64,000 nucleotides of DNA from Thermoclostridium stercorarium subsp. stercorarium DSM 8532 (GTDB lineage Bacteria > Bacillota > Clostridia > DSM-8532), in the NCBI RefSeq assembly GCF_000331995.1, contig NC_020134.1, positions 434,001 through 498,000 on the forward strand. The letters run 5' to 3'. Positions 47,798-58,576 of this stretch are shown here, piece by piece; within the stretch, counting starts at the first letter, position 1, and every line of letters begins with the position of its first letter. The position numbers and the translations under genes were made by a program. The notes under the pieces are model-generated. The model was given only the letters and a program-made list of their open reading frames with translations, did not search any database and was not told where the DNA came from.

Positions 47798-48271
47798 TCA
47801 CCTGATCAGCTTTTTGTAACTTTCCATGAGTTCTATAAACTTTGCGCTGTCACCGCCTGCATCGGGGTGATATTTTTTCGCAAGCTCACGGAACCTTTTC
47901 TTAATGGCGTTTATGTCGGCGTCATAGGGGAGTCCGAAGTGACTGAGAATTTCGGGATCATACATGCTGTTGCTGATAATGCCGTTTTCTTTGTAGTAAG
48001 TGTAATATACGTTAAAAAAGAATTCGCTGATGACTTCTTTCAGTTCATCCCTGTTCATTGAGACAAGTTCGCTTAGGGAATATTTTGAACGGCCTCTGTA
48101 AGCTTCGTTCAGATCGAAGAAATCGTCCCAGACAAGCTTCACATTTTTCATCTTTTCTGAAAACTCTTTATCTGCAAAGGCTGAATTGCCAAATCTTATT
48201 TTAATTTCAACCTTTTTCAGCTTCCTTAATTTGCGTTTGATTTCTTCACGGGTATGGCAGTTGCCCGGCAT
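47798..48271 (-). CDS. Protein with a C-terminal J domain
   Basis: The 157-residue protein ends in a J domain at ~105-157: ILSHFGLPYDADINAIKKRF, then ELAKKYHPDAGGDSAKFIEL with the HPD motif that stimulates DnaK-type ATPase. The N-terminal ~100 residues are basic and helical (EEIKRKLRKLKKVEIKIRFG) and have no known domain; the zinc and Gly/Phe regions of DnaJ are absent. A C-terminal J domain is the reverse of DnaJ and is seen in small co-chaperones. It stands alone. Confidence 0.82.
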   Translation of the reverse strand: MPGNCHTREEIKRKLRKLKKVEIKIRFGNSAFADKEFSEKMKNVKLVWDDFFDLNEAYRGRSKYSLSELVSMNRDELKEVISEFFFNVYYTYYKENGIISNSMYDPEILSHFGLPYDADINAIKKRFRELAKKYHPDAGGDSAKFIELMESYKKLIR

Positions 48272-48383
48272 TTATTTCACCCCTGTTAACTTTGCAGGCT
48301 GCTGTTTATGGTTTCTATTATAAGAAAAGTTGTATGCAGCAGGCAAGAAAATTATGTTATAAACATTGGTATCATAAATAAAT

Positions 48384-48413
48384 TAAACCCCTCCTGTAAT
48401 TGCAACAGGAGGA
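48384..48413 (-). terminator. Terminator of the split SLH protein gene
   Basis: CCTCCTGT (48390-48397) pairs with ACAGGAGG (48405-48412) across 7 nt; on the minus strand it is followed by GGTTTAATTT. It lies just past the stop at 48439. Confidence 0.65.
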
Positions 48414-48438
48414 GTTTACAATGTTTTTATACATGGAC

Positions 48439-50543
48439 TTATTCAGTATAAAACTTATATTTTATATCTTGATTATTTGAAATTATTTCATATGTTATTC
48501 CGTCGTCAAAAATAAACATTCGTTTTTTAATCCGCCCTATCCTCACTTTGCCCGGTTCCACAGCCGTTTTTACCTTTTGGGACCAGCCGAACTCTATTCC
48601 AAGTCCGCTTTTGAGCGTATACCTTGTGTCTATTTTTCCGTCAACCTTTCTTATTTCTGAAAAATTCTTTATAACAAAGTCAAAGGCTTCCTCATTACTG
48701 TCGAAAATAAAATCGCCATCCGGCTCTACTACAAATGTTTTTGAATATTCGCTTGCGGGTCTGAACTGATCAGGAGTGGGTCTGTAATATCCCGCTATAT
48801 TGTTGTTGCCGTCAAGCAGTATGATTGCCAAAGACTGCTTTTCTATCGTATCTCCCAGTTCGTACCCGTAAGAAATAACTGTACTGAAGTCATAAATTGG
48901 GTAGTTCGGCGTACTGAGGAATTTGTAAAGGAAATAGTCATCGGGCATGTCCGCAGGCGCATCAACAATCGCAAAACGGCTTATGTTTTTGTCAAGTGCC
49001 TGCATTCTTACAATTTCGTTGATTATCTCAATTTTATACGGGTCGCCTTCATATACAAAATGGAATATTCCTTTGAGATCTATCACAGGTATTGATTTTT
49101 GTTTTCTATATTCATTCATGTATTCTTTTGCCGCACTTGAAACCGATTTGTTCATGCTTTCCGCTTCGTTTTCATTTACTCTGTAATATCCGAGAGGGTT
49201 ATTGTTCTCGTCCAGTAGGTATACAATAAGATCTTTTTTGTTAAAATGCCCGGTATATATTCCGGGGTCAAAAAACGAGCCATCACAGTTGTAAATTTTT
49301 TCAGAATAAAAATACTTTGCCATTTCTCCTACGTTTATTATGTCCAATTCCTCCACGGTCGGGTACCTGTCTGCATAGGCATTGATTATAAATATCTTTT
49401 TAAACTGCCTGCTTTTTTCGGGGAGTTTTGCCCTGTCAAAATGTATAAGCCCTTTTTCGTAGATACTTATGCCTGATGTAATCTGTTCGAGATATTCAGG
49501 TTCTGTGACTTCTTTAAATTCCAGGTATAGAGTGGTGTTATTATGTACTTTGTCTGTAATCACTGCGTAGCCTAAAATTTTCCTGTCCTTGCTTATAACA
49601 ATGACCGTAGCGGGATCACTGTTGTAAATTGCCCATTTGTTAGTTGTGGAGTCCCCTCCACATTGGGCCTGTAATATTCTGTGGTGTCGTTTTCCGCAGC
49701 CCTTTGCGCGATTAACATCGTTGTATTGTTAAAATAAGGCCCGCCTCCGGTTTCCACCATGTTAAAATCTTTCATTTTTTCGGGAAGGGTATTCCTGTCG
49801 ACGGTTATTCTGAATATTTTAAAGCCGTTTTTGATTTCTTCCATATCCGACAGAATTACTTTTGTAAGTTTTGGCTTGGCGGCTATTTTGTCAAGCAGTT
49901 TTATTTCTTTGGCAGTGTCATAGCTGATTACATTTTCCTGCATGAGTTTTTCCGCAAGGGTGATATTGCTGTTTTTTATCCACGCGGTAAGGGCGTTGTA
50001 TGATATTGCAACCATATCGTCTCTTAAAAATGTTTTTTCTGACAACTGTTTTTCATACGCTTCATCTATTATGTCCAGGAATTTGGCTTTTTCAACAGCT
50101 TTGTCCCAGACAAAATCCCCGTCTTTGTCACTGTATCCCAGTGCCCTTAAAACAAAAGTGGCAAAACTGTTTGCGTCTATTTGGCTGTAAGGATCAAAAA
50201 GGTTGTTGCCAACTCCTTTAGTCAGATTGTTATGATACAAAAAACCAACGTACGGATTCAGCCATTCAGGAACATCGGTAAACGGGTGATTGTAATTTGC
50301 TTCTTTCGCCTCCTTTTCTTTCCCCAGCAGCCTGACCAGCATTACGCTTCCCTCAGCCCGTGTGGGAGCCCTGTCCAGCTCAAAGCCGTCGGTACCGCCT
50401 AATAGAAGACCAAGCCTGTTCAGCGCCTCAGCTTCGACCTGATGGTATGTTTGTCCGGTCTGCCGGGCCATGGACGGGAATGAGACGGTTGAAAAGAGAA
50501 TAAAAAGAAAAAGGATTAAAGCTGTTGATACCGGCTTTTTCAT
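48439..50543 (-). pseudogene. Secreted SLH-domain protein split by a frameshift
   Basis: The first part, from ATG 50543 behind AGGAGG, has a signal peptide (MKKPVSTALILFLFILFSTV), then SLH-type repeats (ALNRLGLLLGGTDGFELDRA, FTDVPEWLNPYVGFLYHNNL...DANSFATFVLRALGY) and a domain with LPEKMKDFNMVETGGGPYF. It leaves frame and stops at 49593. A -1 change at the G4 tract 49653-49656 continues as GDSTTNKWAIYNSDPATVIV, then SKDRKILGYAVITDKVHNNT, in the frame that ends at 48439. That second part repeats the 'LPEK..F' module and the DENNNPLGYYR/DGNNNIAGYYR motif. Intact, it would be ~700 residues and wall-attached. Confidence 0.8.
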
Positions 50544-51176
50544 GAACAAAACCTCCTTTGTTATTGTTTGTTATTAATTCTGGTCCCGCTTAATTTGAGC
50601 GCGTTTTAAAAGAACAGTCTGAGTGAGCAGGATGCCTGCATCAGGCGTCCCTCCAATCTATATCATTACATAAAAAGGTATTTTATGTAAAGTATTTTTG
50701 AATATAAAGTCAGGGAATTGACGGAAATTATAATTCTTTTTAGGGCAAATCAGGCAAATGTGCTATAATAAAAAGCTGTGGTCGCCGATGAAATAACAAA
50801 AACAGATCCGAATTTATAGCAATAAATCCAATTTTATCAATTAATTTTTTTATTATTTTGAGAATTTCATTCACTTTGTCAATTTTATTTTGATGAATTT
50901 GCATAAAAACTATCTAATAATACTATTGTTTTACGCGGCGAATATATATATAATTTGTAGATAGTGTGTTAAAATGATTGAACCATGTCGAATACTGTTT
51001 TTTACTGCAGAATACACAAAAGAATAAATAGGGGGGGGATATAAACGACAAGTTCAGGCTAAATTATGAATGGCTAAGTAGACATACAAGGTTATTTTTT
51101 GCTTTGTTTCCTTCATTGGTGTGAATATGGGACATGAATTCAAAATCTATTAACTTTAGAAAGGTGACGTAGACAT
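50544..51176. other. Long intergenic region between the SLH gene and uxuA
   Basis: No gene is convincing here. The leftward SLH gene has an AGGAGG site at 50551-50556 and an upstream hairpin, GGATGCCTG/CAGGCGTCC (about 50629-50649). A G8 tract (51031-51038) is followed by an open stretch, INDKFRLNYEWLSRHTRLFF, that stops at 51123 and has no normal start codon; it may be the truncated N-terminus of a lost sensor gene. AAAGGTGA at 51159-51166 is the uxuA ribosome-binding site. Confidence 0.45.
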
Positions 51177-52265
51177 ATGAAGATGACCTTTAGATGGTAT
51201 GGCAGTAAACATGACAAAGTAACGCTGAAACAGATCAGACAGATTCCCGGACTTATAGGGGTAATTTCAACACTGTATGATATCCCTGCGGGGGAAGTGT
51301 GGCCTGTGGAAAGAATTCGCGCTTTAAAGGATGAAATAGAAAGCGCAGGGCTCACACTTGAAGGTATTGAAAGTGTAAATGTTCATGAAGATATCAAGCT
51401 TGGGACGCCTGAGGCCGAAAAGTACATTGAAAACTATAAGCAGACTCTCAGGAACCTTGCAGAATGCGGCGTAAAGCTGGTTTGCTACAACTTTATGCCG
51501 GTCTTCGACTGGACCCGCACAGATCTCGCGAAAATTCTCGAAGACGGGTCAAATACCCTGTCATATGACGAAGATGTAATCAGGAAGATTGATCCTGCAA
51601 AAATGTTTGAAGAAGTAAACAATAATTCCAACGGTTATGTTCTGCCGGGCTGGGAACCCGAGCGCTTGGGCGAAATCAAAAGACTTCTTGAATTGTACAG
51701 CGACATGACCGAAGAAAAGCTCTGGAAGAATCTTGAGAATTTTCTGAAAGAAGTAATACCCGTTGCTGAAGAATGTGACATCAAGATGGCTATTCATCCC
51801 GACGATCCGCCGTGGTCTGTATTCGGTCTGCCAAGACTTATTACTTCAAAGGAAAACCTGGAAAGGTTCATTAATCTTGTCGACAGCCCGTACAACGGGT
51901 TAACCATATGCACCGGTTCCCTCGGAGTGGATCCCAACAACAATATACCTGAGATTATCCGGTATTTCGGCTCGAAGGGAAGAATCCACTTTGCCCATGT
52001 GAGAAATGTAAAAATACATGAGCCTCGCAAATTCGACGAGGTTGCCCATAAGTCGGAATACGGTTCGCTGGACATGTTTGAAATTATGAAGGCTTTCTAT
52101 GATGTCAAGTTTGAAGGGCCTATTCGTCCGGACCACGGCAGAATGATTTGGGACGAGGAAGGACGTCCTGGATACGGTTTGTACGACCGGGCACTGGGAG
52201 CCGTATATCTGAACGGTTTATGGGAAGCAATTTCAAAAATGGACAAACTCAATAATAAAAACTGA
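51177..52265 (+). CDS. uxuA: Mannonate dehydratase
   Basis: The 362-residue enzyme dehydrates D-mannonate to 2-keto-3-deoxygluconate in glucuronate breakdown, useful after digestion of glucuronoxylan. It is the xylose-isomerase-like TIM barrel form: MKMTFRWYGSKHDKVTLKQI, GLIGVISTLYDIPAGEVWP, CGVKLVCYNFMPVFDWTRTD, AIHPDDPPWSVFGLPRLI with metal and substrate ligands, and a C-terminal RPDHGRMIWDEEGRPGYG. Full length. AAAGGTGA precedes the ATG. No other uronate genes adjoin it in this window. Confidence 0.94.
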   Translation: MKMTFRWYGSKHDKVTLKQIRQIPGLIGVISTLYDIPAGEVWPVERIRALKDEIESAGLTLEGIESVNVHEDIKLGTPEAEKYIENYKQTLRNLAECGVKLVCYNFMPVFDWTRTDLAKILEDGSNTLSYDEDVIRKIDPAKMFEEVNNNSNGYVLPGWEPERLGEIKRLLELYSDMTEEKLWKNLENFLKEVIPVAEECDIKMAIHPDDPPWSVFGLPRLITSKENLERFINLVDSPYNGLTICTGSLGVDPNNNIPEIIRYFGSKGRIHFAHVRNVKIHEPRKFDEVAHKSEYGSLDMFEIMKAFYDVKFEGPIRPDHGRMIWDEEGRPGYGLYDRALGAVYLNGLWEAISKMDKLNNKN

Positions 52266-52287
52266 CGGCTATCTGAGCTGTTATTGA

Positions 52288-52316
52288 TTGACAAACAAAT
52301 TAAAATCTTCTATACT
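52288..52316 (+). promoter_or_regulatory. Promoter of the DUF2207/radical SAM operon
   Basis: TTGACA (52288-52293), 17 nt, TATACT (52311-52316): nearly perfect sigma-A boxes. It would start RNA near 52323, giving a leader of ~80 bases before the ATG at 52406, suggesting strong vegetative expression. Confidence 0.75.
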
Positions 52317-52405
52317 TATACCAGCAGATACGAGGATGGCGGTTCTGGAGTAACTCAGCGGTTATCTGCGAGTATATGCGGTTCCTGTGAATTAAAAGGA
52401 GATAT

Positions 52406-54136
52406 ATGAACCGGAATAAAATGAAATATATTTTTGGTTGGTTGATATTAGTAGCCATACTAATTCAACCAACCAATATTTATGCATCTGAAATTGCCAG
52501 TCTTGGATTTGTTGAAACCGATGTCATCCTGTTCCCCGACGGTAAAGCCATCGTTTCATACACAGTGAGGTATAATCTTAACCCGGGCAAAACGATGCTT
52601 GCTTTCACAGTGGAGGGATTCGGGAGGCTTAATCCTGTCTTTGATGAAGAATATTCCTGTGTTATAACTGATGACAACATATCTCATGAAATTGACATCA
52701 TTAACCTTGGCGACGGAAAATATGATATTGTCAATTCCGGTAATCAGCGCCTTGGCGGCGAATACCTGACGTATAAATTCAGGTTTGCCGCAGATATGGC
52801 CGAAGCAGGGTATCTGGAAAGGACAACATCGGAAGAAGGGAAGAAGCTTGTTGTCTTTAACTGGGCGCCTTTCCAGTGGGATGAGCCGATGGAACATTAT
52901 ACGGTCACTGTAAACTATCCTCTGGAATATGAAAACAAGGATGCTTCAAGGGAGGAAATAGAGAGTTTTCTCCTGGAGAATGATTTTGCAACCGAAAAGT
53001 GGATGAACGAAGAGTATCTGATTGATTACCGGGTGGTTGAGTTGGACTCTGTAAGAAGGGTCCAGGTTCTGCTCCATAAAGAAAATCCAAAGGCGGGATA
53101 CCATTTCAGGATTCAGCAGTATATATCGGAAAATGTATTTAATGAAATTCCCGGCGGCAGTGCTTCTTTTGACGGGAAAATAACCGAGAAAGAAAAGGAT
53201 TTGCCTGTAGTTCCGTGGTTCCCGGGTGAAGACGGGTATGCACGGTACCGCGAACACACGGACAGAACGGCTTTAATATCAGTTTTGGGGCTTTTGTTTT
53301 TTATTACGCTGTTGGCAATCGGCAAAAAGCATCGATCAATGGTTAAAGCTCATGAGACGATGGACCAGGTGCAATGGGCAAGGACCGACTGGGAGCCGCC
53401 TGAAATTGAAATAGCATCTTTCAGGAAAGACGGGCATGTTGCCGACAATTTGGATGAATATGAGGCCGCCTTTTTTATGGGTGTACCGTATAAAACCATT
53501 CTTGCGGCCATTCTGGCAAAACTTGTGGCGAAAGGGTATCTTGAGGAAATTTCCGCCGATCCTCCTAAAGTACGAAGGATTGAAGGCAAACCCCTGTCGG
53601 AACTGAACAAGTATGAGCGAATGGTGTATGACGCCGCGGAAGACGGAGAGTTTAGCGCTCATGAGATTGATAAAATACTGCAGCTGCTTGTTAGCAATGT
53701 TAAAGAAAAAACTTACGACTGCGATCTTGACGCCACAAGAAAATATTATCAAAAAAAGCTTTCCGACAGTATTCTCGAAGATATTCCCGATTTCGGCGAA
53801 GAAGAGGGACGGTTTCAGCGAGAAGGCCATTTTGATAGGGAATATTATTATACCGATAACTGGATTTGCTGGTATTTTTACCACAATCATATGTATCACT
53901 CCGACTACAGAAAACGTTGCAAACGTTATGAGACATATATTCCTGTAAATAACGACAGTGTGGCATTCAGTTCATCTTTGAATTCAGCGGGCGGGCGCTT
54001 TGCCTGCCATTCGGCCTGCCATGACGCCTGTCATTCGGCTTGCCATTCGGCGTGCCATTCAGCCTGTCACTCCGCATGCCATTCTGCATGCCATTCCGCT
54101 TGCCACTCTGCATGCGTGAGCGGAGGTGCAAGATGA
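52406..54136 (+). CDS. DUF2207 membrane protein with a C-terminal Ala-Cys-His-Ser repeat tail (probable radical SAM substrate)
   Basis: The 576-residue protein has a signal peptide (~1-28), a DUF2207 extracellular beta domain (~30-260), one membrane helix (~288-306, TALISVLGLLFFITLLAIG), a cytoplasmic region with two conserved helical parts (AAFFMGVPYKTILAAILAKL, GKPLSELNKYERMVYDAAED), and a tail at 533-572 of ten four-residue units: eight ACHS, one ACHD and a final ACVS, ending GGAR. With one helix the tail is cytoplasmic, where the radical SAM enzyme encoded by the next, overlapping gene could reach it. Repeated Ala-Cys-x-x tails beside radical SAM/SPASM genes are known from the ACGX system; this is a His-containing form. 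GGAG precedes the ATG. Confidence 0.82.
   Translation: MNRNKMKYIFGWLILVAILIQPTNIYASEIASLGFVETDVILFPDGKAIVSYTVRYNLNPGKTMLAFTVEGFGRLNPVFDEEYSCVITDDNISHEIDIINLGDGKYDIVNSGNQRLGGEYLTYKFRFAADMAEAGYLERTTSEEGKKLVVFNWAPFQWDEPMEHYTVTVNYPLEYENKDASREEIESFLLENDFATEKWMNEEYLIDYRVVELDSVRRVQVLLHKENPKAGYHFRIQQYISENVFNEIPGGSASFDGKITEKEKDLPVVPWFPGEDGYARYREHTDRTALISVLGLLFFITLLAIGKKHRSMVKAHETMDQVQWARTDWEPPEIEIASFRKDGHVADNLDEYEAAFFMGVPYKTILAAILAKLVAKGYLEEISADPPKVRRIEGKPLSELNKYERMVYDAAEDGEFSAHEIDKILQLLVSNVKEKTYDCDLDATRKYYQKKLSDSILEDIPDFGEEEGRFQREGHFDREYYYTDNWICWYFYHNHMYHSDYRKRCKRYETYIPVNNDSVAFSSSLNSAGGRFACHSACHDACHSACHSACHSACHSACHSACHSACHSACVSGGAR
54002..54121 (+). repeat. Ten tandem 12-base units coding for Ala-Cys-His-Ser
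   Basis: The units vary at synonymous sites (GCC/GCT/GCG/GCA; TGC/TGT; CAT/CAC; TCG/TCA/TCC/TCT) yet keep the residues nearly constant. This pattern implies selection on the peptide rather than recent copying of DNA. Confidence 0.9.
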
Positions 54137-55461
54137 AGCATAAACTGTCATGGGTTGACGACTTTATAAACAGTATAAAACCCTATGTATACATGCGCCT
54201 TAAAGACAATGTACTCATCCGCATGCCGAACGAGGCATTTAAGTTAAACCCTTCAGGGGCGAGAATTGTAAAACATATTTTGGACGGGGGTTCAGTTCAG
54301 GATTTTATCAGAGCCAGGTCCGATTTTCCGGAAACCGAATCACAACTGGAGAGGTTTTTTATAGACTTTTCGCGTATATGGAACGGCGAAGTATGCGAGA
54401 ATTATAAAACCGATGCCATAAGGAAAACTGAATTCAGAATCGGGTATATTGAGCTTCCGGTCCTTTCAGAAGTGGCGTTGACCTACAGATGTAACATTAA
54501 GTGCGAGTTCTGTTACGGGGACTGCACCCGGACTGAAAGGCAGAAACAGCTTGATACGGCCGGATTTAAGAAAATACTGGACATAATAAGGTATGAAGCC
54601 GAAGTTCCAAGCGTTTCGTTTACAGGCGGAGAGCCGACAACATATGGGGATTTGCCCGAACTTATAAAATACGCGTCAAAACGGAACGGAATGAGGGTTA
54701 ACCTAATTACGAACGCAACTCTTATAACTCCAAAAAAAGCAAAGGAATTTGCCCGTGCGGGGCTTTCGTCGGCGCAGGTTAGCATAGAATCGGCCTATGC
54801 ATATGAACACGATGCAATAACAGGGGTTCCCGGTTCCCATGCCGCATCGGTGGCGGGATTTAAAGCTTTGAAAGAAGCAGGGATCCTTGTGCATCCCCAT
54901 GTGACAATCTGTAAAATTAATAAAGATAGGCTGGTGGATTATCCCAAGTTCTGTAAAGAAATCGGGGCCGAAAGATTTTCGGCAAACCTTGTGATACCTG
55001 CAGGTCGCGGCGTAAATGAGAAGCTGACGGTAACATACAGCGAAGTCGGCGGTATCGTCAGAGAACTTAAAGCCCGGGCTTTAAAGCTTGGAATTCAGTT
55101 TATGTGGTATTCCCCCACTCCGATATGCCTGTTTAATCCATTGGCGGAAGGCTTCGGAAACAGGGAATGCAGTGCCTGTGAGGGGCTGCTTTCGGTTGAC
55201 CCGAAAGGAAACCTTCTTCCTTGTTCAAGCTGGTCTGAACCTGTTGGCAACCTTTTAGACGAAGGATTTGAGACGGTATGGAATAACAGGCGCTGCAAAT
55301 GGATACGTGCAAAGGAAGCAGCACCTCAGGAATGCAGAAAATGCAGGCATTTCACGGCCTGTCAGGGAGCCTGCCCGCTGTATTTTAAAGCCCATGGCCA
55401 TAATGAACTTGTTCCTCAGTGGAAAACAATGGGGATTATTAAGGAAGGATGTCCGGTATGA
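54133..55461 (+). CDS. Radical SAM/SPASM peptide-modifying enzyme with N-terminal PqqD-like region
   Basis: The 442-residue enzyme has an N-terminal PqqD-like region (~18-65, YVYMRLKDNVLIRMPNEAFK...ARIVKHILDGGS) that may bind the substrate peptide. The radical SAM core has the CxxxCxxC cluster Cys120-Cys124-Cys127 (YRCNIKCEFC), SFTGGEPTTYGDLPEL for AdoMet, and a SPASM domain with RECSACEG, DPKGNLLPCSSW, and CRKCRHFTACQGACPLYF, ending GCPV, enough Cys for two further Fe-S clusters. Enzymes of this type crosslink or oxidise residues in peptides. ATG 54133 overlaps the stop of the repeat-tail gene (ATGA), with GGAGG upstream, so the two are translationally coupled. Confidence 0.9.
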   Translation: MKHKLSWVDDFINSIKPYVYMRLKDNVLIRMPNEAFKLNPSGARIVKHILDGGSVQDFIRARSDFPETESQLERFFIDFSRIWNGEVCENYKTDAIRKTEFRIGYIELPVLSEVALTYRCNIKCEFCYGDCTRTERQKQLDTAGFKKILDIIRYEAEVPSVSFTGGEPTTYGDLPELIKYASKRNGMRVNLITNATLITPKKAKEFARAGLSSAQVSIESAYAYEHDAITGVPGSHAASVAGFKALKEAGILVHPHVTICKINKDRLVDYPKFCKEIGAERFSANLVIPAGRGVNEKLTVTYSEVGGIVRELKARALKLGIQFMWYSPTPICLFNPLAEGFGNRECSACEGLLSVDPKGNLLPCSSWSEPVGNLLDEGFETVWNNRRCKWIRAKEAAPQECRKCRHFTACQGACPLYFKAHGHNELVPQWKTMGIIKEGCPV

Positions 55462-56456
55462 ACGGCATGCTGCGCCTGCCTGGCTTTCCTCCGCCTGAAA
55501 AACAGAATATTGTCCGGTTTCACGTATTGAGAAGCCTTTCCTATCCTGCAAGAATAATACTGTTTCTTGTATTTTTGCTGGCGGGTTTCGCAGTTCAGTT
55601 TTTTACATTACGGGTGTGGCCCGGAGCTTTGTTTTTGATTTTCGCGTCTGCCATTGTACTTGTCCGCGGCTATGACAGCCGTGTAGAAGTTAAGTCTGAT
55701 CCGGATGCCGGGTGGACTCATGTGGGTATGGACAAATTAAACCGGATTAAGGAACTGGACAGAAAAGCCGCAGAATGGGACAGGGACATTCTTGATATCA
55801 GCAATTTGGCCGGGTTTTTCACGTTTTTGGTTACGTTGTCGGTTCTGGTGATTGTGTATTTATCAACAAGAGACAGTTACTTTTACCGCGAAACGGGGGT
55901 TATTTTTGTAAGCGATGCGATAATACTGATTGTTCCGATGTGGTTTACCGGAATACGCAGAATACCGAAACAGGGGAACTTACTGATTAAGGTGGATATT
56001 ATAAAGCAGATGGAAGCATATTTCCGGCTTGTAAAAAAAGACGGGGAAAATTTTGTCCCGCTGCTTATGCTGGCAAAGGACAAAACCGGCAAAAGCATTC
56101 CGACCGACTGCAAATTCGCGGTTACGTTTGACAATATGCCCGACGGTTTTTACGGCATCCAGGCACAGGTTAATATTAATCTGGTGCAGGGGACAGGTTA
56201 TCCGTATTTTTATTGTGTAATTGTGGCGAAACCAGGTTTCGGACTGGATCGTCATGCAAGGGAAATCGTTGCCCCGAAGGGCATTACAATAGATTATAAC
56301 GAAAATAGTAATGCCGAGGTTATTGTTATACGGCAGACTACGACGAAAACGTCAGGTTACCATACGAAAATAAACGACTGTAAGAAAATTCTTGCCGAAA
56401 CGCTTGCCGAAACAAGAAAAATCCTTTCATCCACGCAAAAGGTAATCAAGCAATAA
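55458..56456 (+). CDS. Membrane protein, third gene of the radical SAM operon
   Basis: The ~332-residue protein has four predicted helices: paired ones at ~25-60 (IILFLVFLLAGFAVQFFTLR, FLIFASAIVLV) and ~110-160 (GFFTFLVTLSVLVIVYLS, IILIVPMWFTGI). A soluble C-terminal domain of ~160 residues follows (KVDIIKQMEAYFRLVKKDGE...DNMPDGFYGIQAQVNINLVQ). I recognise no named family. Its ATG overlaps the radical SAM stop (ATGA at 55458), with AAGGAAGG upstream. It could be an assembly or export partner of the modified protein; that is inference from the operon. An open stretch in another frame continues to about 56560. Confidence 0.7.
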   Translation: MNGMLRLPGFPPPEKQNIVRFHVLRSLSYPARIILFLVFLLAGFAVQFFTLRVWPGALFLIFASAIVLVRGYDSRVEVKSDPDAGWTHVGMDKLNRIKELDRKAAEWDRDILDISNLAGFFTFLVTLSVLVIVYLSTRDSYFYRETGVIFVSDAIILIVPMWFTGIRRIPKQGNLLIKVDIIKQMEAYFRLVKKDGENFVPLLMLAKDKTGKSIPTDCKFAVTFDNMPDGFYGIQAQVNINLVQGTGYPYFYCVIVAKPGFGLDRHAREIVAPKGITIDYNENSNAEVIVIRQTTTKTSGYHTKINDCKKILAETLAETRKILSSTQKVIKQ

Positions 56457-56605
56457 CAAAACCGGCAGTTCTAATTGAAATAGACCCCGGTACGGCTTCT
56501 GATTCGTCAGACGTTCCTCAAGATATGGAAGATGTATTTATCAGTAACAGTAAACAATAATTCATTAGAATGATTATGACTAAGATAAAAGAAAACCCCC
56601 GATTG

Positions 56606-56634
56606 TTGTTTTATATTTTAAAAGCGGATATAAT
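56606..56634 (+). promoter_or_regulatory. Promoter of the macro-domain gene
   Basis: TTGTTT (56606-56611), 17 nt, TATAAT (56629-56634). The leader to the ATG at 56721 is about 80 bases. Confidence 0.6.
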
Positions 56635-56720
56635 TAATGCATGAATGTGGAGGAGTGCGGCCTCAAAATCACGGGCAGCCCGTAACGGGAAAGACCTGTC
56701 AATTAAAGGGTGGGAGTATT

Positions 56721-57242
56721 ATGAAGCGCTTGGAAATAATACTCGGCGATATTACGAAGGTAGAAACAGACGCCATTGTTAATGCGGCGAACAAAACGCT
56801 GCTCGGCGGCGGAGGGGTGGACGGTGCAATCCACAAGGCGGCAGGCCCTGAGCTTCTTGAGGAATGCCGCAGGTTAAACGGCTGTGAAACGGGTGAGGCC
56901 AAACTGACAAAAGGTTACAGACTTCCTGCGAAATATGTGATTCACACGGTAGGCCCGGTATGGCGCGGCGGAGACCATGGCGAAGACGGTTTGCTTGCGG
57001 CCTGCTACAGAAACTCACTCCGCCTGGCGGTGGAATATGGTATAAAGACCATCGCTTTTCCGTCGATAAGCACCGGAGCATACCGTTTTCCTGTCAGACG
57101 CGCCGCCCGAATTGCCATTTCGGAGATATTGAAATTCCTGAATGAAGACAAAAGTATTGAGAAAGTTTTAATGGTGTGTTTTGACAATGAGGCCTTTAAG
57201 GCCTATGAGGAAGCTTTAAGGGAAATGACTTCAAAAGCCTGA
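56721..57242 (+). CDS. Macro-domain protein (ADP-ribose / O-acetyl-ADP-ribose hydrolase type)
   Basis: The 173-residue protein is a single macro domain of the YmdB/MacroD type: [39 protein letters not shown] with the catalytic-loop Asn/Gly/Asp, [22 protein letters not shown], and [15 protein letters not shown]. Such proteins bind ADP-ribose and hydrolyse O-acetyl-ADP-ribose or remove ADP-ribose from proteins. ATG 56721 follows AAAGGGTGGGAG; the longer frame upstream has no conserved sequence. It has its own promoter. Confidence 0.93.
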
Positions 57243-57428
57243 AAATGTGCTTTTTTTACAGGCCCAAAAGTGATAATGGGGCCATTTTATGAACGGGAGC
57301 ACAATACCCCCTCCTCCGTCTGATATATTAATAATGTCATGTTTTTATTAAGTCTGTTTTGATAAGGGAATCACAGGGGGAACGGTTACCGGAATGGCGG
57401 AAGGGAGGGGGACGAAAACAGTGTTTAG

Positions 57429-58451
57429 TCAGGTTTTGTCTTTATTCGGCGGCATTACACTTTCTTTATATACGATCTCTCCCTGAACAATTCTCACCCC
57501 GGGCTTTATTTTCACGTGGTTTATCCTGTCCAGAAGAATGCTGATGCTTTTTTTAACCATTTCACGTACATTCACGTCATAAGTGGTTATGCCTATATCG
57601 CTTAAACCTGGATACAAATAATTGTCAAAACCTACAACCGAAATGTCTTCAGGCACTCTGTAATTAAGCTTCCTTAAATGTTTGATAAGTAAGCTTGCCG
57701 TGAGATCGCAGTTACATACAAATGCAGTGGGCATTTTTTCGGGAAGTTTAAACTCAAAGCTCAAAACGTCGCCAGTTGCCCAGTCCCGATCGTCCAGAAT
57801 CCATTCCTTGCGTATTTCCTGACCATGTTCCATCATTGATTTGCAGTATCCGAGATAACGATCGGTTATGCTTCCTGTATAAAGCAGCGTGCCTACATAA
57901 GCAATATCGGTGTGCCCCATGCGGAACAGGTAATTTGTAAGCATATAGGTTCCGTAAAAACCGTCTGAAATTACCGAGTCACAGTTGCTGAAATCGTCAA
58001 AAAAATCCAGGCACACCATGGGCAGCGAACTTTCTTCACGTATTGTTTTTATATAACCGTTTTTCGGACGTCCGAGCAGAATGATTCCGTCCACTTTATT
58101 TTCTTGGATGAGTTTGGGAAGTTCATGTTTTTCTTCGTCTTCGGGTTCAATAACCTCCAGCATTGTAAAGCATTTTTCCTTCACTGCGACCGTGGCCAGT
58201 TCCTGATACATATACCAGTAAAAGGAATTACGTATTTCAAAATACCTGCCAGGTACTATTACTCCAATGTTTTTGCTGGAATTATTCCTTTTTGACGAAG
58301 GCTGTCTGTAGCCCATCTGGTCGGCAAGCCGTCTGATTTTTTCCCTGAGCTCCTCGCTCACGCCTTTTTGACCCGAAAGGGCCTTTGACACAGTTACATT
58401 GCTTACATTGAGTACCTTAGCGATATCCGACAATGTTACCCTTTTTGCCAT
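57429..58451 (-). CDS. LacI-family transcriptional regulator
   Basis: The 340-residue repressor has an N-terminal LacI helix-turn-helix (VTLSDIAKVLNVSNVTVSKA, hinge LADQMGYRQPS) and a periplasmic-binding-like sensor (IGVIVPGRYFEIRNSFYWYM, DGIILLGRPKNGYIKT, DISVVGFDNYLYPGLSDIGI). It is 125 bases downstream of an ABC importer on the same strand, which it likely controls. The AT-rich region 58452-58576 before it holds its promoter but no operator I can define. Confidence 0.92.
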   Translation of the reverse strand: MAKRVTLSDIAKVLNVSNVTVSKALSGQKGVSEELREKIRRLADQMGYRQPSSKRNNSSKNIGVIVPGRYFEIRNSFYWYMYQELATVAVKEKCFTMLEVIEPEDEEKHELPKLIQENKVDGIILLGRPKNGYIKTIREESSLPMVCLDFFDDFSNCDSVISDGFYGTYMLTNYLFRMGHTDIAYVGTLLYTGSITDRYLGYCKSMMEHGQEIRKEWILDDRDWATGDVLSFEFKLPEKMPTAFVCNCDLTASLLIKHLRKLNYRVPEDISVVGFDNYLYPGLSDIGITTYDVNVREMVKKSISILLDRINHVKIKPGVRIVQGEIVYKESVMPPNKDKT

Positions 58452-58576
58452 TGCGTTAACCTCAGCCTGTATATTTTTTAAGTAAAATTAACATTATTTT
58501 AATTTATTTTAACCATTGTGTTTTAATTTTTCAACACTTTCAGCAGCTTTCATAAAAAGTTAACAGGTTTTTTGGC

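Follow-up and report, generated by a model that had tools for sequence, protein, structure and literature searches.

Among the described systems closest to the one reported here, the ACGX system (TIGR04340, rSAM_ACGX) combines a SPASM enzyme with an ACGX-repeat peptide, and TIGR04117 (Syntroph_Cxxx) describes a radical SAM target with a Cys-Xaa-Xaa-Xaa repeat. SkfB and AlbA (sactipeptides) or CteB and PapB (ranthipeptides) share a radical SAM core, SPASM or Twitch clusters and an RRE-like N-terminus; in such systems the substrate is a short separate precursor with a leader, and a peptidase or exporter belongs to the gene set. SkfB carries an RRE and makes a Cys thioether (PMC6231123). Protein-borne modifications by SPASM-type enzymes are described for QhpD/QHNDH and anSME/sulfatase, where the enzyme acts on a larger protein which retains the modification (PMC8326336). 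Here we describe a three-gene cassette of Thermoclostridium stercorarium subsp. stercorarium DSM 8532 (NC_020134.1, positions 434,001 to 498,000 of the forward strand; this stretch of 64,000 nucleotides is called the window and coordinates are counted from its first letter). It encodes a membrane protein ending in a Cys/His repeat (orf1), a radical SAM/SPASM enzyme (orf2) and a second membrane protein (orf3), and appears to be a new, protein-borne variant of the SPASM/Cys-repeat theme. Loci with this kind of repeat are called type A below.

52406-54136, + strand: orf1, 576 residues, DUF2207-like membrane protein with the repeat tail, putative substrate; present at 32/32 loci
54002-54121, + strand: ten ACHx units, orf1 residues 533-572, reading ACHS ACHD (ACHS)7 ACVS and followed by GGAR
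54133-55461, + strand: orf2, 442 residues, radical SAM/SPASM enzyme and putative tail maturase; PF04055 and PF13186 above cut-off
55458-56456, + strand: orf3, 332 residues, accessory membrane protein whose C-terminal domain is probably cytosolic; present at 32/32 loci

The layout recalls the ACGX system, as the first-pass annotation of this stretch had pointed out, in that a SPASM enzyme accompanies a four-residue Ala-Cys-x-x repeat. This resemblance concerns layout only and does not extend to kinship. Membership in TIGR04340 was rejected because orf2 scores 32.7 bits against a cut-off of 400 (none of 33 genomes lies above it) and the third residue of the unit is His, not Gly; moreover, the repeat is borne by a membrane protein of 576 residues and orf3 is present. 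Elsewhere in the same genome (G000:C1:213179-216457) two adjacent SPASM-like frames were observed, one of which reaches 84.9 bits on the ACGX enzyme model, below its cut-off. TIGR04117 shares with the tail a Cys at every fourth residue but its model is 98 positions long and without a membrane protein, and membership was likewise rejected since, against a cut-off of 50 bits, the window tail scores 11.5 and the best match of the class, also a type-A tail, 31.5 (none of 382 genomes above). With both curated models far from their cut-offs, the view of an undescribed variant system held. Compared with sactipeptide and ranthipeptide systems, the repeat forms the C-terminus of a large membrane protein instead of a short separate precursor with a leader, and no peptidase or exporter gene recurs within about 6 kb. 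Compared with QHNDH and sulfatases, the putative modification sites are 9-10 near-identical units at a membrane-protein C-terminus. The distinguishing features are the putative membrane-protein substrate, the presence of orf3, the near-constant His of the units and the occurrence of parallel tails in sister clades. No description of this cassette was found in the open-access literature searched, which leaves out most subscription journals, so that its absence from print is not established.

The ten Ala-Cys units read in the first-pass annotation are present in the sequence, as are the gene positions and both ATGA overlaps. The third position of the unit is His in nine cases and Val in the last, which brings ten Cys and nine His together over 40 residues; at the DNA level the tail is a 12-base tandem repeat. 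An in-frame tail of 9-10 units is kept in 34 of 35 distinct enzyme-linked type-A loci (the window, 31 loci from named genomes, L073, L076 and the decayed L078). Distinctness was judged from the sequence preceding each tail, by script for 25 of the loci, and the table of 34 tails leaves out L078. Counted by script, 25 tails contain ten units and 9 contain nine. Position 4 of the unit varies (Ser, Asp, Asn, Thr, Ala, Gly), mainly in units near the N-terminus. Hardly any variation is seen in the last five units and the ending (three ACHS, ACH[SG], ACVS, GG), and the terminal ACVS is found in all 34 tails. The tail is nearly constant across Bacillota, Fermentibacteria, CSSED10-310 and Armatimonadota, with enzymes down to 45% identical. 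In the last eight units of 32 loci (496 pairs), 0.92 of the synonymous and 0.06 of the non-synonymous sites differ, and third-base identity is 0.392 between equivalent units of two species versus 0.386 between different units. Saturated synonymous sites beside conserved amino acids show an old array whose peptide is under selection; such selection had been proposed from the window alone.

The three genes are distributed as an all-or-none set in the order: strong matches to orf2 (722-1040 bits; next match 103 bits) occur in 14 of 33 genomes, and the tail-less part of orf1 and orf3 are found in the same 14, the other 19 giving no match at E<=0.001. The enzyme is present at >=707 bits in 16 of 391 genomes of the class (next match 144 bits) and at >=769 bits in 4 of 398 genomes of a phylum sample (next match 254 bits). 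Two short enzyme patterns that take no account of the tail were run against named genomes and returned 31 loci. These come from Acetivibrio, Thermoclostridium, Herbivorax and other Bacillota, from Fermentibacteria and CSSED10-310, and from one Armatimonadota bacterium at 45% identity. At each of the 31 loci the enzyme gene is immediately preceded by a tail-bearing orf1 and followed by orf3, although some of these genes are incomplete in draft contigs; loci whose genes are frame-broken there (L037, L041, L045, L056, L062) or which are cut by contig ends (L036, L045, L056) were retained in the counts. Upstream of one cassette (by about 2 kb, in a Fermentibacteria contig) lies a further SPASM-like frame, L057:1267-2376, with E 9.5e-23 to orf2. 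Only the orf1, orf2 and orf3 families occur in 32/32 loci. The next family is found in 4/32, and a wider conserved cluster was rejected on this ground. No recurrent peptidase or exporter family was seen in the 32 loci (covering at most 6 kb to either side, and less in several of them). The enzyme has no match at E<=1e-40 in the plasmid and phage collections, and carriage of the cassette by either was rejected accordingly.

The enzyme-tail partnership proposed from the window thus holds across the sample. An enzyme without the repeat, the finding named beforehand as speaking against the partnership, was encountered solely at the decayed locus L078 (genome G298, one contig). There, the enzyme runs in frame from the first SPASM half into orf3, the second SPASM half is gone, and orf1 is shortened by the loss of its cytosolic domain, with an out-of-frame tail. 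As read from this contig, the substrate part and the enzyme part are damaged together.

The same design was found with other Cys tails beside related enzymes, a point that the first-pass annotation had not mentioned. The next closest enzymes after type A come from 14 loci (214-254 bits) and form two clades. In type B (L115, L116, L123, L126), the gene just upstream encodes a membrane protein ending in CACACACACA[SG][SG]GGCT; L115, L116 and L123 continue with a similar third gene, whose product begins with a signal-peptide-like stretch. In type C, which groups nine loci (L113, L114, L117, L118, L119, L121, L122, L124, L125), the membrane-protein gene lies just downstream of the SPASM enzyme and the tail reads GGGGFGGRxxGCxCVSCACACVSCACACACAGGxGAGC (L117, cut before the motif end, is counted as type C and is absent from alignment A6 and from the tree). 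A Cys-tailed membrane protein therefore accompanies the enzyme at 13 of the 14 loci; the partner gene of the 14th, L120, contains unread bases and this locus was left out of type C. The profile of the related clades aligns with the type-A enzyme alignment A2 over columns 27-420 (E 3.2e-70), and the type-B partner matches the cytosolic domain of orf1 with an hhalign probability of 97.8% (E 8.6e-13). An enzyme tree of 30 rows places each of types A, B and C on one side of a branch (support 98/98, 100/99 and 100/97, respectively); the outgroup branches are long and the outgroup placement is unsure, the outgroup row L079 standing beside type C. Tail type follows enzyme clade. A fourth form, type D, consists of CACACACAGGGRAGC tails on signal-peptide proteins (L079:533-1480 and L081:2384-3391) beside weaker SPASM enzymes in which the second set of SPASM Cys seems incomplete. 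His is scarce or absent in the tails of types B, C and D.

A cruder Cys test (six Cys in 24 residues, any frame) matches all 14 type-B and type-C loci, the match of L120 being an unrelated frame. It matches 4 of 19 weaker SPASM loci (two of them L079 and L081), 6 of the 17 weakest loci, three of which have SCIFF-like peptides, and 2 of 30 DUF2207 loci, both through unrelated short frames. Three type-B/C partner proteins match no NCBIfam family at E<=0.1, and three type-B/C enzymes reach no NCBIfam cut-off among their best 25 matches. L122, the sole type-C partner scanned, gave no Pfam or NCBIfam match above cut-off.

The enzyme belongs to the radical SAM/SPASM superfamily according to its matches to PF04055 (85.9 bits) and PF13186 (37.3 bits), both above the gathering score. 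Its main features are the following.

54133-54432, + strand: RRE/PqqD-like N-terminal domain, orf2 residues 1-100, a predicted fold with a sub-threshold sequence match
54490-54513, + strand: radical SAM motif CNIKCEFC (CxxxCxxC), orf2 residues 120-127, with C120, C124 and C127 invariant in alignments A1 and A2
55168-55374, + strand: SPASM Cys set C346, C349-x9-G-x4-C364, C401-x2-C404-x5-C410-x3-C414, orf2 residues 346-414

The SPASM Cys set is near-invariant in A2 (13 rows, of which L056 is a fragment without the SPASM part), and C332 in the linker is a further conserved Cys. One more Cys usually follows the CX2CX5CX3C motif of SPASM domains; it is not conserved in the orf2 family. AlbA also has just seven Cys for two clusters, from which it was proposed that the substrate binds at the open site (PMC6231123).

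The PqqD-like N-terminus announced by the first-pass annotation stays below threshold by sequence: PF05402 gives 14.8 bits on orf2 against a gathering score of 23.4, and 2 of 13 members match at E<=0.1 (best 0.019). In the orf2 model (predicted local distance difference test score, pLDDT, 75) this region consists of three strands followed by three helices (E19-22 E27-30 E34-38 H40-50 H55-61 H68-83), which is the order of an RRE. Whole-chain VIA-align superpositions include SkfB (Z 25.0, root-mean-square deviation (rmsd) 5.7, 333 aligned residues, model 17-415) and SuiB 5v1t (Z 23.7, rmsd 5.3, 360 aligned, model 7-423). SkfB has the top Z, tied with viperin-like entries at 24.1, and comes first among solved structures in a profile search; the RRE-bearing SuiB comes first in Foldseek.

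The topology of orf1 and the segment preceding its tail were read from hydropathy and from the homologues in alignments A3 and A4 (the window and 15 of the 31 named loci).

52430-52486, + strand: signal peptide or first membrane segment, orf1 residues 9-27, from hydropathy, in 14/16 homologues
53267-53323, + strand: membrane segment followed by a positive cluster, orf1 residues 288-306, in 16/16 homologues, with a net positive C-flank in 16/16
53924-54001, + strand: linker [YF]ExSxPVNPDxVxF, orf1 residues 507-532, candidate recognition (leader-like) segment, from alignment A3

The two hydrophobic segments and the positive residues C-terminal of the second predict that residues 307-576, tail included, are cytosolic, in line with the location suggested in the first-pass annotation. 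This agrees with the DUF2207 topology described in PMC10457818. Most of the 16 rows, spanning Thermoclostridium to CSSED10-310, show a recognisable linker, whereas L033, L047 and L060 hardly do or do not; we propose the linker as a candidate enzyme recognition segment, comparable to a leader. On PF09972 (DUF2207), the window protein scores 16.9 bits, below the gathering score of 24.4, and 9 of 16 aligned homologues match at E<=0.1 (best 1.2e-7). TIGR04222 gives 23.3 bits on orf1, below its cut-off of 43, and 3/16 members at E<=0.1.

DUF2207 proteins such as SMU.243 of Streptococcus mutans resemble orf1 in their outside N-terminal domain and their inside C-terminal part with a low-complexity tail. 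The ordinary members read in the class differ by the absence of both the Cys-rich tail and the enzyme. Of 35 matches in the class, 30 were read, 20 of these with wider flanks. None of the 30 ordinary frames has a Cys-rich tail (their final 60 residues hold two Cys at most; L151 is truncated at a contig end), and a Gly-rich stretch lies in the same span of 21, two of which do not have it at the very end. No enzyme matching the A2 or A6 profile was found beside the ordinary genes at 20 loci (up to 5 kb on each side), and two cassette loci used as positive controls matched. A DUF2207 gene adjoining a 5-thiohistidine gene is reported in PMC12631010, whose authors judge the DUF2207 protein not linked to that chemistry.

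In the window, orf3 has no Pfam or NCBIfam match, and its structure model (pLDDT 82) retrieves nothing at E<=0.001 with Foldseek. The best VIA-align entry is 1yb3 (Z 7.4, rmsd 4.7, 125 aligned), and several YbjN-family and type III secretion chaperone entries score Z 5-7, weak values that the tool's own note places in the range of chance. A tail-binding role for orf3 is a guess.

Both gene junctions of the window show a 4-base ATGA overlap. Among the 31 named loci, with script-chosen starts, 23 share this overlap between orf1 and orf2, 19 share it between orf2 and orf3, and 17 have it at both junctions; elsewhere the genes overlap differently, lie up to a few hundred bases apart or are frame-broken in draft sequence. 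Two candidate expression signals were identified.

52288-52316, + strand: sigma-70-type promoter TTGACA-17-TATACT, 11/12 matches
54122-54126, + strand: Shine-Dalgarno-like GGAGG for orf2, within the codons of the tail's terminal Gly-Gly

Sigma-70-type sites are not in excess in the region (9 found, 7.9 expected from shuffles), and of 27 named loci tested, 9 have exact TTGACA/TATACT boxes, spaced by 17 bases, in the 250 bases preceding orf1. The GGA of the tail-end GGAR is encoded by GGAGGTGCA, and the same bases supply GGAGG 6 bases 5' of the orf2 ATG; GGAGGTGC precedes the enzyme start at all 14 loci compared. Conservation of the terminal Gly-Gly codons may thus be partly explained by a service of GGAGG in orf2 translation initiation. 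An open frame running back over the tail ahead of the enzyme start is a by-product of the stop-free repeat and was not counted as coding. The Rfam scan of 48000-58500 detected no RNA element at the gathering score, and with a leader fold z of -1.28 a known RNA element was rejected. Neighbouring genes in the window encode an SLH-like protein (49593-50549, - strand, sub-threshold match), the mannonate dehydratase UxuA (51177-52265, + strand) and a macro-domain protein (56637-57242, + strand). The latter two are placed outside the system because they occur in just 3/32 cassette loci.

The cassette is probably a self-contained membrane-protein maturation unit, in which the enzyme would modify a cytosolic tail that stays attached to its protein. 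We regard it as highly probable that the orf1 tail is the substrate of orf2. According to the proposed sequence of events, orf1 would be exported and cross the membrane once (or twice if the N-terminal signal is uncleaved), leaving the DUF2207-like domain outside and the conserved domain with the ten-unit ACHx tail in the cytosol. The enzyme would dock on orf1 via its RRE-like N-terminal domain, probably at linker 507-532, and modify the units one by one using radicals derived from S-adenosylmethionine and the SPASM auxiliary clusters. Cys thioether crosslinks, roughly one for each unit, would be the most likely product; this chemistry is ranked first because SkfB, the leading solved relative in the profile search, makes a Cys thioether, and as an analogy with the enzyme family we give it an even chance. 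Retention of the modified tail on orf1 is assumed with good confidence, since no peptidase or exporter recurs with the set. There, the tail might act as a stiff, redox- or metal-active cytosolic module, which orf3, as a membrane partner, could conceivably bind or present. By analogy, a role in envelope or redox stress may serve as a first guess because orf1 resembles DUF2207 proteins and loss of SMU.243 reduces acid and oxidative stress tolerance (PMC10457818).

Several observations weigh against this interpretation. The Cys/His-rich tail, whose modification is deduced from sequence, could act unmodified as a metal site. The array itself is not rigid: its unit number is not fixed, the second unit of L060, a tail scored nine, is an irregular one of six residues that follows one extra ACHS, the first Ala is replaced by Val in L051 and L052, and the first unit of L073 is AWHS, with Trp for the first Cys and a regular remainder, so that the first Cys may be dispensable there. 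Type-A Gly-Gly conservation is partly owed, it seems, to the ribosome-binding site. On the enzyme side, the RRE-like domain is not significant by sequence, the two short patterns could miss more divergent enzymes with or without tails, and the best curated models are heme-pathway SPASM enzymes, so that a non-peptide substrate is conceivable. If the tail were an unmodified metal-binding or redox array (Zn, Cu, Ni, Fe-S), with the enzyme acting elsewhere, for example on orf3 or on a small molecule, the density of Cys and His ligands would be accounted for, and a ligand array would tolerate the missing Cys of the in-frame L073 tail. However, the tail is in frame at 34/35 enzyme loci, related enzymes pair with Cys tails of little or no His, which indicates that Cys arrays and not His ligands accompany these enzymes, and the Ala and Ser are conserved here although a ligand array should permit their substitution. 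This explanation is unlikely.

Still less probable is a conventional peptide natural product, the tail being modified, released from orf1 and then exported in cyclised form. SPASM enzymes are known to modify precursors with a repeat core (TvgA/TvgB, PMC9062424), but here the "precursor" would be a membrane protein of 576 residues with a cytosolic domain that is also conserved in type B, and the 32 loci, several with flanks short of 6 kb, yielded no recurrent peptidase or transporter family. Orf2 could also be a tetrapyrrole enzyme akin to AhbD/NirJ, with the overlapping CxxxCH motifs of the tail binding heme or a heme precursor at the membrane. The top NCBIfam models on orf2 are indeed heme b synthase (133.6 bits) and NirJ2 (130.3 bits), and C-x3-C-H is repeated along the tail. 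Both scores nevertheless remain far under cut-offs of 500, the type B, C and D tails of related enzymes are poor in His or devoid of it, and c-type heme attachment takes place outside the membrane while this tail is predicted to be cytosolic, which makes such a function very improbable. A recent expansion of the 12-base tandem repeat with no selected function has a negligible probability; a chance or young repeat is refuted by the synonymous/non-synonymous and third-base comparisons of the units and is at odds with the conservation of the amino acids over several phyla.

Maturation of an attached tail by orf2 therefore remains the preferred interpretation. More speculatively, and with a probability that we consider low, these loci could represent a radical SAM maturation class that acts not on a peptide but on a cytosolic tail which remains permanently part of a sensor-like membrane protein. 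Four or more tail chemistries, with a separate SPASM group for each, would then turn a DUF2207-like or similar scaffold into an array of identical radical-made crosslinks; in type A these would join the Cys sulfur to the His ring or to neighbouring residues and form a redox or metal module. We know of no described precedent for a radical SAM crosslink between a Cys sulfur and a His ring. Should orf2 indeed act on the tail, the scope of radical SAM maturation would widen: beside small secreted peptides and proteins modified at a single site, it would take in the repeated modification of a membrane protein's inner tail, in a cassette kept from Bacillota to Armatimonadota. The repeat offers up to ten near-identical reaction sites, which would be useful for chemistry. 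DUF2207 proteins are widespread, and their enzyme-coupled version makes the function of the low-complexity tail directly testable.

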